The notes beneath the pieces are model-generated. The model saw only the letters and a list, made by a program, of their open reading frames with translations, was not told the origin of the DNA and did not search any database. Below, in pieces: positions 925 to 8,505 of a stretch of DNA of 64,000 nucleotides (the first letter of the stretch is position 1; each line of letters opens with the position of its first letter). Source of the DNA: Candidatus Sulfopaludibacter sp. SbA3 (GTDB taxonomy: Bacteria; Acidobacteriota; Vicinamibacteria; Vicinamibacterales; UBA2999); the NCBI GenBank assembly GCA_945903265.1, contig CAMDNQ010000005.1, positions 1 to 64,000 on the forward strand. The letters run 5' to 3'. The position numbers and the translations under genes were made by a program.

Positions 925-1977
925 CTAACGAAGAAACAGGTCGGTCCAGACCTTCTCCCACTTATCCTTTTCATCGAGGGCCGTCACCGGATCGATGACG
1001 GTGAACGGGAAGTTGTTGAGCTCACTCTTGATCTTCGTGCTCGCCGGCACACGCCCCATCGACTCGAAGAGCTTCTGTCCTTCCGGTGACAGGACGTAAT
1101 CGACAAACAGGATCGCCGCGTGTGGGTGCGGCGCATTCCGCGCGACCCCTATTCCCTGCGGGCGCGCAACCACCGGCTGCACCGGCACGAAATCAATCGG
1201 CGCACCCTTCCGCTTCAGCGGCAGAACGTTGCTGTGGTACGTCGTCAGCCCGACGGGCACCTCGCCTGCCACGATCAGATTCGCCAGCAGGATGTGGCCC
1301 TTGCGGACGTCGGGCTTCAGCGCCGCCAGCCGCCGGAAATAGTCCATCCCCTTCGCGGTTCCCCACGTCTTGACGATCGTCGCCATCCACTCGGCATCGG
1401 TCGCCTCGACGCTGATGCGGCCCTTCCATTTCGGATCGGTGAAGCCGTCGTACGTTGCCGGGATCTGCGAGCGCTGCACCTGTTTCGTGTTGTAGGCGAC
1501 GACGTAGAAGTTGAAGCGATCGGGAAACCAGGTGCGATGCGCCGGGATGGACTTCGGCGGCAGGTCCGCCAGATACGGCGAATACATCTCGCCGAGGATC
1601 TTTTCGCGCGCGAGCATTTCCATCTCGGGACCGTTGGTCTCGACGACGTCCACGACATGGCGCCTGGCGCGCGCTTCCGCAACGGTCCGCTGCACCACCT
1701 GATCGGAGAGGGCGCGCCACAGCACGACCTTCACGCCGTATTTCTTTTCGAAGGCCGCGGCGAGCGGCTGTGACTCCGTCGGCGCCAGCGAGGTATACAG
1801 CGCGACGCTCCCCTCGCGTTTCGCGCGCTCGACGAGCCGCGCGTCGCGGTCGGCGCCGCGGTACCGGAAGATGGCGTCGTTGCCCGGCGCCTGCGCGCCG
1901 AGTGTCGCGGCGCCGGCCAGCGCGAGCAAGCCGGCCAACCCGCTGAATCCCTTGAACCTCTTGAACTGTCCAAACAC
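925..1977 (-). CDS. Extracellular solute-binding protein (Fe3+/polyamine type), orphan
   Basis: The protein of about 350 residues has a signal peptide and then a periplasmic binding protein type 2 fold. Visible landmarks are 'REGSVALYTSLAPTESQ', 'FEKKYGVKV', 'DPKWKGRISVEATDAEW' and a C-terminal 'FVDYVLSPEGQKLFE', as in ABC ferric iron (AfuA/FbpA) binding proteins. No permease or ATPase gene is adjacent, so it is an orphan here. I prefer the GTG at 1977, which gives a compact signal peptide; an upstream TTG at 2016 is possible but would overlap the divergent cupin gene. The N-terminus (MFGQFKRFKGFSG) is encoded by a 9-base tandem repeat. Confidence 0.8.
   Translation of the reverse strand: MFGQFKRFKGFSGLAGLLALAGAATLGAQAPGNDAIFRYRGADRDARLVERAKREGSVALYTSLAPTESQPLAAAFEKKYGVKVVLWRALSDQVVQRTVAEARARRHVVDVVETNGPEMEMLAREKILGEMYSPYLADLPPKSIPAHRTWFPDRFNFYVVAYNTKQVQRSQIPATYDGFTDPKWKGRISVEATDAEWMATIVKTWGTAKGMDYFRRLAALKPDVRKGHILLANLIVAGEVPVGLTTYHSNVLPLKRKGAPIDFVPVQPVVARPQGIGVARNAPHPHAAILFVDYVLSPEGQKLFESMGRVPASTKIKSELNNFPFTVIDPVTALDEKDKWEKVWTDLFLR
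1939..1973. repeat. Imperfect 9-base tandem repeat at start of the binding-protein gene
   Basis: Three units, roughly GAATCCCTT, GAACCTCTT and GAACTGTCC, lie in tandem and encode the FKRFKGF segment of the signal peptide on the minus strand. The 9-base period gives a 3-residue protein period. Confidence 0.55.
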
Positions 1978-2006
1978 TGTGCTATGTATAACCGACGGCC
2001 GACCCT

Positions 2007-3065
2007 TTGAGTACAAAAACCCACACCACCACGACGCACTACCACATCCAGAAGAAGCGCCGCGCCGAGTTCATCAGCGAGTGGCGCAAGTACCGGCAGA
2101 CCGTCATCCACAAAGACGACGTCCGCCTCGTGCCCACGGCGCGCGGGCTTCGGACAGGCGTCTACATGGGAGCGGACGGCGATCGGCCGACCCGTATTCT
2201 CGACGCGCTCGTCCACGAGGTCGATCCCGGCACGACGACAACCATTCACAGGCACTCGTGGGACGCAATCCTCTTCATGGTCGAGGGCAGCGGATGGACC
2301 GAAGTGGACGGCGTCCGCTACGACTGGAAAGCGTGGGACGCGATCCATCTGCCGGCGTGGAGCTGGCACCGGCACGGCAACGACGGGACCACGCCCGGGC
2401 GGTTCATGAGCTATTCGTCGGAGCCGACGCTCTGGACGCTCGGCATGAGCGTCATCGAAGACGCCGGCCATGCGCCGTTTGCGACGCTGGCGCCGCGGCC
2501 GGCCTTCTCACCCGGCCCCGCCGGCGACGACCCCTATGCGCGCCGTCTGCGCCGCCTCGAACAGGAAACGAAGAAACGCCGATCCGGGCGGATCCACACG
2601 CCGTACGACGAGCAGGAAATCCTTGCCACGCCGCGCGGCACGCGCACGAAATTTCTCAACGACCGCGCGATCGGCAACCAGGCGTCAGGCCTGAGCCAGG
2701 TGATGATTCAGTTCGCGCCCGGCAAGACGCAGTCGCTGCACCGCCACCCGGGCGAGGCGTGGCTGTACGTCGTCGAGGGTTACGGGCACAGCTTCATGGG
2801 CACCGAGCCCGATAACGGGCAGCATTACCCCTGGAAGAAGGGCGACCTGATCGTGGTCGACCACTTCCTCTGGCATCAGCATTTCAACGACGACCCGAAC
2901 AACCAGTGCCGGCTCGTGCGCATCCACATGTTCGATTCGCTGCTCGAGACGATGCGCGCGGTGATCGATCCGATGGTGCTGTTCGAGGAGGCGGAAGACA
3001 CGCTGGTCTCGAGCCAGGAGCTCTCGCAGATTCAATGGCCGGAGGATAAGCGGCCGGGCGACTGA
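2007..3065 (+). CDS. Double-cupin (bicupin) domain protein
   Basis: This 352-residue soluble protein carries two cupin barrels. The first has H81 and H83 (IHRHSWD), an acidic residue near 93 and H121/H123 (SWHRHG). The second has H245 and H247 (LHRHPGEAW), E250 or E257 and H290/H292 (WHQHFND). Both retain plausible metal ligands. The layout resembles gentisate 1,2-dioxygenase-like bicupins, but the substrate cannot be read from sequence. The start is uncertain: TTG at 2007 is the first available codon. The stop overlaps the start of the AAA+ gene by one base, so the two are translationally coupled. Confidence 0.82.
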   Translation: MSTKTHTTTTHYHIQKKRRAEFISEWRKYRQTVIHKDDVRLVPTARGLRTGVYMGADGDRPTRILDALVHEVDPGTTTTIHRHSWDAILFMVEGSGWTEVDGVRYDWKAWDAIHLPAWSWHRHGNDGTTPGRFMSYSSEPTLWTLGMSVIEDAGHAPFATLAPRPAFSPGPAGDDPYARRLRRLEQETKKRRSGRIHTPYDEQEILATPRGTRTKFLNDRAIGNQASGLSQVMIQFAPGKTQSLHRHPGEAWLYVVEGYGHSFMGTEPDNGQHYPWKKGDLIVVDHFLWHQHFNDDPNNQCRLVRIHMFDSLLETMRAVIDPMVLFEEAEDTLVSSQELSQIQWPEDKRPGD

Positions 3066-4153
3066 TGGCCGACATTCCGCGCTCGGCGCTGCCACCGGGT
3101 GTCCTCTCGATGCACGTCCTCCCCGCCGATCACCACGATCGGGACTGGGACGCGATCATCGTGCCGCGCGAGGTCAAGGAACGGCTCCTCTCACAGGCGC
3201 TGCTCGTGCTCGAGCATGGCCGCAAGCTGTCGATGCTCTCCGGACTTCCCCACGGCCTCATCGTCCTCGCGGGTCCTCCCGGAACCGGGAAGACGACGAT
3301 GGCGCGGGGACTGGCGCAGGTGGCGTCGCTGGCCCTTGCCCGCAAGGGTGCGACGGTGCTGCTGGAAATCAATCCACACGCGTTCCCGAGCGACATGCTG
3401 GGCGAGAGCCAGCGGAACGTCACGCGCCTGCTGACCGAGACGATTCCCGAGATCGCCGCGCGCCGTCCGTTCACCGTCGTCCTCATTGACGAGGTCGAGA
3501 GCTTCGCGGTCCGGCGCTCGTCCGCCTCCTTCGAGGCCAATCCGGTTGACGTCCATCGCGCCACGGATGCCGTTCTTCTCGGCATCGATGAAGTCGCGAA
3601 GAACCTTCCCTCGGTCCTGTTCGTGACGACCACCAACTTCATCGAGGCGGTCGACGAGGCGTTTCTCTCCCGCGCCGATCTCGTGATGACGTTCGCGCTT
3701 CCCGACCGCGAGACGATCGAAAAGATCCTGGCCAGCGCGATCGGCGAGCTGGCGGTGCAGTGGCCCGCGCTCCTTCCGATGACCCGGGATACGGGGAAAC
3801 TCTCGGAACTGGCGGCGCTGTGCGAAGGCTGGGATGGGAGGCGGATCCGCAAGCTGCTGCTCGCGGCGCTCGCCCAGCGCCTCGAGGTGGCGCGCAATCC
3901 GGCGACCCTGACCTGGGACGACCTGCTGGGGGCTGCACGGAAAAAGGGGGGCGTCGAATGGGCCGGCGGCGCCGCGCCAACGTCCCGGGAGCTGTTTCCC
4001 GACGTGCCGAAAGAATTGATGCACGACCACGATCATGGGCATGGCGTCCACGATCATGCCCACGATCACCCGCACGATCACCCGCATCCGCATCCCTCGG
4101 CTTCGCTCGGGACAGGCCGCTCCACCCATACCCATCCTAAAGACCCCAAATAG
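3065..4153 (+). CDS. TRIP13/Pch2-type AAA+ ATPase with histidine-rich C-terminal tail
   Basis: The 362-residue protein has a complete AAA+ core: Walker A GPPGTGKT (70-77), Walker B VVLIDE (138-143), sensor-1-like TTTN (188-191), RAD at 203-205 and a sensor-2 segment GRRIRKL (258-264). The stretches EINPHAF, ESQRNVTRLL, IDEVESF and 'FLSRADL' match the TRIP13/Pch2 subfamily, whose eukaryotic members remodel HORMA-domain proteins. No HORMA gene is visible. Residues 320-357 form a tail with 14 histidines alternating with Asp, Gly and Pro, like the metal-binding tails of HypB or UreE. The gene is coupled to the bicupin. A role in metal loading or remodelling of the cupin enzyme is inference. Confidence 0.85.
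   Translation: MADIPRSALPPGVLSMHVLPADHHDRDWDAIIVPREVKERLLSQALLVLEHGRKLSMLSGLPHGLIVLAGPPGTGKTTMARGLAQVASLALARKGATVLLEINPHAFPSDMLGESQRNVTRLLTETIPEIAARRPFTVVLIDEVESFAVRRSSASFEANPVDVHRATDAVLLGIDEVAKNLPSVLFVTTTNFIEAVDEAFLSRADLVMTFALPDRETIEKILASAIGELAVQWPALLPMTRDTGKLSELAALCEGWDGRRIRKLLLAALAQRLEVARNPATLTWDDLLGAARKKGGVEWAGGAAPTSRELFPDVPKELMHDHDHGHGVHDHAHDHPHDHPHPHPSASLGTGRSTHTHPKDPK
4094..4119. repeat. Short palindromic interspersed repeat inside the AAA+ tail
   Basis: A CCCTCGGCTTCGCTCGGGACAG-type element sits in frame within the histidine-rich tail. It encodes SASLGTG and splits the HPHP run from the final THTHP. On the minus strand it reads 'CPERSRG', the translation typical of this widespread intergenic repeat. 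It looks like a repeat insertion that kept the frame. Confidence 0.6.
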
Positions 4154-7202: not shown

Positions 7203-7598
7203 ATGAGCAAGCGTACATTCAGCATCCTGGCGGTCTGCGGACTGCTCATGGCGGCGGTGCCGGTCGCAGCGCATCACGCGCTGGCGGCGCAGTACGACAT
7301 GGATAAGCCGATCGAGATCACCGGGACCCTCAACAAGATGGAGTTCATCAATCCGCATTCGATGCTCCATCTCGACGTCAAGAAAGCCGATGGCGCGGTG
7401 ACCACGTGGGTGTTCCAGACGACCAACGCCGGATCGCTCCGGTCGAGGGGCCTGGCGCGCAACGCGCTCGAACAGGGCGCGACCTACACGGTCAAGGGGT
7501 TTGCCGCGAGAAACGGCAACCCCATGGGCTTCCTCCGCGTCCTCGTGTTCCCGGACAAGAAGGAAATGACCTTCTGGTTCGGCGATCCCAACGACTAG
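7203..7598 (+). CDS. DUF6152 family secreted protein
   Basis: A 131-residue protein with a signal peptide (cleavage near PVAAHHA) and the features of DUF6152: an N-terminal HHA motif, 'YDMDKPIEITGTL', an 'FINPHSMLHLDV' strand and 'LARNALEQGATYTVKGF'. The fold is probably a small beta barrel; function is unknown. A GGGAGG sequence precedes the ATG. It lies 22 bp after the receptor and 10 bp before the next gene, so it is co-transcribed. Confidence 0.85.
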   Translation: MSKRTFSILAVCGLLMAAVPVAAHHALAAQYDMDKPIEITGTLNKMEFINPHSMLHLDVKKADGAVTTWVFQTTNAGSLRSRGLARNALEQGATYTVKGFAARNGNPMGFLRVLVFPDKKEMTFWFGDPND

Positions 7599-7608
7599 GA
7601 GACGGACC

Positions 7609-8505
7609 ATGACACGCGCCATTACGTTCATGGGGGCGCTGGCGATCACGATGATCGCCGGCGCCGCGCCCACCGCGCAGATGCCGCAGTCGAACGGATC
7701 GAACGGCGAAGCGAAGGTGGCGACTCCGCGGCTCGGCAATGGCCGGCCCGATCTGACTGGAACCTGGGCGGCCGGCGGGGGCGGGGGCGGCGGCGGCCGC
7801 GATCTCGTGGAACTCGAGCCGGGAAAGCTCGCCGAAGAGTTTCCGTCCCGTCGCTGCGGTCCCACGCAGGTCCGATGCGGCGACTACACCAACCAGTCCG
7901 AGGACGGCGAGTTCACCGCCCGGCTGACTCAGAACCGGCCGCTGTACAAGCCGGAATACTGGGACAAAGTGCAGCAACTGGACATGTGGACGAATAAATA
8001 CGACCCCCTGTTCTTCTGCCAGCCCCTCGGTCTCCCGCGCGCGGGCGCGCCGTCGCGGATCCTCCAGACCGACAACGACGTGGTCTTTCTGTATGCGGCC
8101 GGCGGCGGCGGCGCGGGCAATGCCGAGTACCGCACCATCCCGATCGACGGCCGCAAGCACGACCCCGTCAAGTCACAGGACGTGCTGTTCTGGGGCCACT
8201 CCGTCGGGCGCTGGGAAGGCGACACGCTCGTGATCGACTCCGTCGGTTTCAACGATCTGACGTGGCTCGACAAAGGCGGTCTCTTCACGTCGGAGAACAA
8301 GCGGGTGATCGAGAAGTTCACCCGCGAGGGGAACATGCTGCGGTACGAAGTCATCGTGGAGGATCCGGACGTGCTCGCCGAGCCCTGGATCATGACCCCA
8401 CGCATGCTTCGGCTCAACACGAACAAGGACGCCGGTCTGTTCAACGAAGCGACGCCATGCCGCGATTACGACCACGCGAACATGGTCACGCAGATTCGTC
8501 ACTGA
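7609..8505 (+). CDS. Secreted protein of unknown function (RPDLTGTW type)
   Basis: This 298-residue protein has a signal peptide (cleavage near APTAQM) followed by 'NGRPDLTGTWAAGG', a motif of many acidobacterial and proteobacterial secreted proteins that sit beside DUF6152 genes. A poly-glycine run follows at about residues 58-64. Later segments such as 'WEGDTLVIDSVGFND' and 'LTREG/FTREGNMLRYEV' are typical of that family. No catalytic motif is recognised. GGAGA lies 8 bases before the start. A strong hairpin just downstream suggests transcription is attenuated here. Confidence 0.75.
   Translation: MTRAITFMGALAITMIAGAAPTAQMPQSNGSNGEAKVATPRLGNGRPDLTGTWAAGGGGGGGGRDLVELEPGKLAEEFPSRRCGPTQVRCGDYTNQSEDGEFTARLTQNRPLYKPEYWDKVQQLDMWTNKYDPLFFCQPLGLPRAGAPSRILQTDNDVVFLYAAGGGGAGNAEYRTIPIDGRKHDPVKSQDVLFWGHSVGRWEGDTLVIDSVGFNDLTWLDKGGLFTSENKRVIEKFTREGNMLRYEVIVEDPDVLAEPWIMTPRMLRLNTNKDAGLFNEATPCRDYDHANMVTQIRH

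Follow-up and report, generated by a model that had tools for sequence, protein, structure and literature searches.

A bicupin gene joined to a HORMA-less TRIP13-type ATPase in Acidobacteriota and Proteobacteria, with a possible role in cupin metal handling

What would a TRIP13-type AAA+ ATPase do beside the gene for a cupin? TRIP13 proteins have roles in mitosis, meiosis and bacterial immunity, and to our knowledge the family acts only on HORMA signalling proteins. Cupins form a huge enzyme superfamily for which dedicated ATP-driven helpers are not, as a rule, known, and cupins of the type considered here often acquire iron without helpers. The known action of TRIP13 on HORMA proteins is conformational (PMC4439613), and type III CBASS uses TRIP13 together with HORMA proteins (PMC9122588). 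The question arises from a stretch of 64,000 nucleotides of Candidatus Sulfopaludibacter sp. SbA3 (contig CAMDNQ010000005.1, positions 1 to 64,000; here called the window), in which the two genes lie together on one strand (Table 1). The original prediction for this locus was of a new pairing, in which the ATPase loads or remodels the cupin as a metalloenzyme.

Table 1. Coordinates of the bicupin-TRIP13 locus and of the protein features discussed in the text
Feature	Position in window	Strand	Description or basis
Bicupin gene	2007..3065	+	352 aa; TTG start; two Cupin_2 domains; distantly gentisate 1,2-dioxygenase-like
TRIP13-type AAA+ ATPase gene	3065..4153	+	362 aa
ABC-transporter solute-binding protein gene (SBP_bac_1/6/8 type)	925..2016	-	Divergent; third member of the conserved locus
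Bicupin N-terminal extension, residues 1-35	2007..2111	+	MSTKTxTTTTHYHIQKKRRAEFxxEW; conserved, invariant positions in alignment
Bicupin metal site 1	2247..2375	+	H81, H83, H121 or H123 (HRH...WHRHGN); invariant in 13/13; gentisate dioxygenase alignment
Bicupin metal site 2	2739..2882	+	H245, H247, H290 or H292 (HRH...WHQHFN); invariant in 13/13 homologues
ATPase Walker A	3272..3295	+	GPPGTGKT, residues 70-77; alignment with homologues
ATPase Walker B	3479..3502	+	VLIDEVES, residues 139-146; alignment with homologues
ATPase C-terminal His-rich tail	4019..4150	+	44 aa, 14 His, from residue 319; sequence

The overlap noted between the two genes is real and amounts to one base, common to the bicupin stop codon TGA and the ATPase ATG. 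Where the bicupin begins with TTG, most homologues have an aligned ATG, and the real start of the divergent solute-binding protein may be internal to the open reading frame listed. Elsewhere in the window, positions 551-910 encode a SUI1-domain protein, which resembles a translation initiation factor. At 7203-8505 there are two genes for secreted proteins, of 131 and 298 aa, from families that also occur near the pair in three other loci (L052, L054 and L055), possibly by chance, since these families are common there.

The ATPase proves to be a genuine TRIP13 of the bacterial kind. It scored 322 bits (E=1e-96) with the PADLOC TRIP13 model, the next model giving 62 and IetA 56, and its best PDB sequence matches, by single sequence and by family profile, were all TRIP13/PCH-2. 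The motifs from which the family had been predicted, EINPHAF, IDEVESF and RADL, are indeed present; EINPHAF, IDEVESF and SRAD are found in the ATPase, in TRIP13 and in CBASS Trip13 but not in FtsH/Cdc48-type outgroups. A predicted structure (mean pLDDT 68, with a core at about 75-90 and a disordered tail) returned PCH-2, TRIP13 and E. coli Trip13 as the top rows of a fold search (Foldseek, VIA-align), with Z up to 19.7 over 265 residues at 3.8 A, against about 16-17 for unrelated AAA+ rows. In a tree, the cupin-linked ATPases form a clade of their own (99/100) beside the CBASS groups; the placement of human TRIP13 there is unsure because of its long branch. Profile, PDB matches, motifs, tree and fold all place the ATPase inside the TRIP13 clade. 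It shares EIN.H, IDEVES and SRAD with eukaryotic TRIP13/PCH-2, but like the bacterial proteins compared it has no N-terminal domain, its residues at the position of the eukaryotic pore-loop W221/F222 are M-L, and its substrate is apparently not a HORMA protein. Walker A and Walker B are both intact in the alignment, and ATP-driven remodelling is thus a putative activity. NorQ and CbbQ, the MoxR-type activases that had been brought in for comparison, probably belong to different ATPase families: the best Pfam match of the ATPase is AAA PF00004, with AAA_3 and AAA_5 matching weakly, and no VWA partner was noticed. What stands is a functional analogy with these proteins and with HypB as metalloenzyme-activating ATPases, which in HypB extends to a His-rich tail.

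The nearest known relatives of the ATPase are CBASS Trip13 proteins, at 41-48% identity. The type III Trip13 (Cap6; for example Rhizobium pRlBT01c, PDB 6p8v and 6pb3) has the same AAA+ core and the same signature positions, EIN.H, IDEVES, SRAD and DGR.(I/V/L)RK, and equally has no eukaryotic N-terminal domain. The surroundings differ. CBASS Trip13 genes adjoin HORMA and cyclase genes: a HORMA gene lies about 430-515 bp away in 5/5 genomes with a CBASS-type relative (42-44% identity), and the plasmid relatives (41-48%) belong to CBASS operons that include a cyclase gene, HORMA being annotated in 2/4 of those inspected. In contrast, the cupin-linked ATPase has a bicupin partner and a His-rich tail, and no HORMA protein was found above cut-off (PF18173, PF18138) in any of the 14 genomes that carry it, the source genome included. 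The prediction that HORMA, cyclase and effector genes are missing nearby was therefore correct and, for HORMA, extends to the whole genome; the genes around the pair are for a solute-binding protein, catabolism and transport.

The partner is a bicupin in which both predicted metal sites are intact. They can be described more closely as three-His sets with no Glu fourth ligand in either cupin, the gentisate-dioxygenase pattern across the 13 aligned homologues. Two cupins with HRH and WHxH three-His sites are likewise seen in gentisate 1,2-dioxygenase and its bicupin relatives (3bu7, 2d40). However, the protein gave only 62.9 bits with the curated model TIGR02272, for which the cut-off is 442.1, and it is therefore not a gentisate 1,2-dioxygenase. 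That both of its metal sites are intact is a further difference. The predicted structure of the bicupin was poor (mean pLDDT about 44) and was left out of the fold search; it has a helix, at low confidence, over residues 10-32. These residues lie in the conserved N-terminal extension, a candidate site for engagement by the ATPase. For comparison, the N-terminal region of Mad2 is required for TRIP13 binding, direct pore contact there being disputed (PMC5717197). A search of plasmids with the bicupin gave no match.

The pairing is conserved. In the acidobacterial family to which the window belongs, 8 of 43 genomes, each of a different genus, have the bicupin, and exactly these 8 have the ATPase, always next to it (Fisher p 7e-9, with kinship left uncorrected). 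Relatives were also sought by exact peptide patterns in about 85,000 species genomes. It found 14 true relatives. Some are from Acidobacteria and others from records titled Betaproteobacteria, Acidiferrobacteraceae and Acidimicrobiia, of which the last falls inside the acidobacterial family by GTDB grouping; one of 15 loci (L028) proved to hold an unrelated AAA+ protein. Adjacency is thus kept in two phyla, Acidobacteriota and Proteobacteria, between which each protein keeps an identity of about 69-89%, so that the pairing is not a matter of chance. The divergent solute-binding protein gene lies beside the pair in 12 loci, and the bicupin gene is the only one that always adjoins the ATPase. 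Wider searches of the gammaproteobacterial class and of one order yielded no further pair. Most relatives are metagenome-assembled genomes, and sampling is thin outside one family. In one record titled Betaproteobacteria (L019/L050), the bicupin and the ATPase are 88% and 83% identical to acidobacterial ones, nearly as close as the latter are to each other, which reflects either transfer from phylum to phylum or a mixed assembly. In the literature, within partial coverage, we found nothing that links a cupin with TRIP13 or with EutA. The predicted new pairing is a conserved unit, and it is wider than predicted, taking in transporter genes and a second ATPase.

This second ATPase, of the EutA family, is newly found here to co-occur, with its His-rich tails, with the bicupin-TRIP13 pair. 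In three proteobacterial loci (L047, L048 and L051), the operon that runs divergently carries a gene for a EutA-family protein (PF06277, E 3e-113), whose N terminus includes the stretch DHDHDH. In the acidobacterial family, homologues at 63-67% identity are present in 7 of the 8 genomes that carry the pair and in 1 of the other 35 (Fisher p 2e-6, again without correction for kinship), the exceptions being a carrier without the gene (G036) and a noncarrier with it (G035). The source genome has its copy at 146725-148389 of contig C4. All of these proteins have His-rich N termini, and in several of them 14-15 of the final 30 residues are His. PF06277 matches over the whole length (379.6 bits), as it does in EutA, the reactivase of ethanolamine ammonia-lyase; the NCBIfam equivalog, however, gives 321.8 bits, well below its cut-off of 598, and EutA is without the His-rich tails. 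EutB was found in 1 of 16 genomes and is missing from all carriers but one, which makes it unlikely that the second ATPase serves ethanolamine ammonia-lyase. EutA-like genes without tails adjoin bicupin genes in genome G007 and on megaplasmids of Sinorhizobium and Phyllobacterium. On the Sinorhizobium mexicanum plasmid (L092) the two genes are directly adjoining, and on that of Phyllobacterium zundukense (L091) they are adjacent and next to a gene for the putative metal transporter YjbE. These two plasmid loci are a wider EutA-cupin link without TRIP13.

The tail of the TRIP13-type ATPase holds exactly the 14 histidines that had been predicted, and in an alignment of 12 homologues 10 have such a His-rich tail, its length varying. 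It is lost in one locus (L025), degraded in a second (L023) and short in a third (L021), and so is not strictly essential. Such tails are otherwise scarce: 13 of 278 coding-like ORFs of all loci have at least 8 His within 40 residues, and about 12 of these are this ATPase or the EutA-like protein. At 4050-4120 of the window, the His-rich tail is broken by PSASLGTGRS, where the DNA resembles an inserted repeat; a mobile repeat as its source was not supported, the motif occurring once in about 138 kb of the organism's own sequence. Genes for NicO (PF03824) Ni/Co transporters, with the H-x4-D-H (HX4DH) permease motif, are present in 4 of 6 proteobacterial loci, and together with the co-occurring His-rich EutA-like ATPase they lend independent support to metal handling. 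In the acidobacterial family no NicO was found at E 1e-10, a weak negative from a search without a positive control.

In the source genome (G000), the EutA-like gene lies in a large catabolic cluster at 138000-157500 of contig C4 (L070), whose other genes are for several more cupins of different kinds, parts of an ABC transporter, a thiamine-diphosphate enzyme and a hydroxyisobutyrate-type dehydrogenase. The clusters of relatives add a LigXa-like Rieske protein, shikimate dehydrogenase, HpcH/HpaI aldolase and ketopantoate hydroxymethyltransferase. One proteobacterial locus (L048) holds the transporter, thiamine-diphosphate enzyme, EutA-like, regulator, NicO, binding protein, bicupin and TRIP13 genes together. 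Judged by their gene contents, these clusters point to aromatic or hydroxy acid catabolism as the likely pathway.

Our main reading, to which we give a probability of about one-half, is that the TRIP13-type ATPase is freed from HORMA and is a dedicated remodeller of the bicupin, with insertion or removal of its metal, helped by the EutA-type ATPase. We infer steps in roughly this order. First, the ring of the ATPase would take hold of the cotranslated bicupin by its conserved N-terminal extension and open the barrel or oligomer. This would allow metal to be loaded, or one that is dead or wrong to be withdrawn, and the His-rich tail of the ATPase would hold the metal or hand it over. The metal would more probably be Ni or Co than Fe; nickel cupin dioxygenases are known, as in nickel quercetinase (PMC4416304). 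The EutA-type His-rich ATPase would act in the same pathway, much as EutA exchanges the inactive cofactor of its own enzyme, ethanolamine ammonia-lyase (PMC9426561). The fuller form of this proposal is more tentative and, on balance, we lean slightly against it: a maturation or reactivation system for the cupin with two ATPases, a TRIP13-type unfoldase and an actin-fold ATPase of EutA type, whose His-rich tails carry the metal that is loaded into or exchanged in a bicupin dioxygenase.

The same adjacency and co-occurrence would be expected if remodelling by the ATPase served assembly, disassembly or quality control of the bicupin, without any transfer of metal, the tail serving just to buffer or sense it. 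The variable length of the tail and its loss or decay in some members fit this, as does the conformational nature of the known work of TRIP13 (PMC4439613). However, an unrelated ATPase that co-occurs with the pair is His-rich tailed as well, and NicO transporters are in the clusters, and we consider this explanation unlikely. A further step down in probability, and improbable in our estimate, is that the ATPase targets the EutA-like ATPase, the cupins of the contig C4 cluster or the transporter, and that it adjoins the bicupin through shared regulation alone. The source genome does have its multicupin cluster with a EutA-like gene elsewhere, and the locus also includes the binding protein; against this stand the translational overlap of the two genes and the bicupin as the one constant neighbor. 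That the pair is an antiphage system derived from CBASS, or works with an undetected HORMA protein, is very improbable: CBASS Trip13 proteins are its closest known relatives, but two Pfam models gave no HORMA over cut-off in the carriers, no cyclase or effector lies alongside, the neighbors are catabolic and transport genes, and membership in CBASS was rejected for want of HORMA in the genome.

If the reading of the ATPase as a dedicated bicupin remodeller is right, a TRIP13 clade without HORMA that works with a metalloenzyme would show this machine to be recruitable to another substrate, and a simple system of two proteins could then serve to test where TRIP13 came from and how it chooses its substrate. 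A cupin would in addition have a dedicated ATP-driven helper, and the EutA family would be connected with metalloenzymes beyond ethanolamine ammonia-lyase. Together, the pairing and the His-rich second ATPase suggest a previously undescribed way to load or repair a metalloenzyme.
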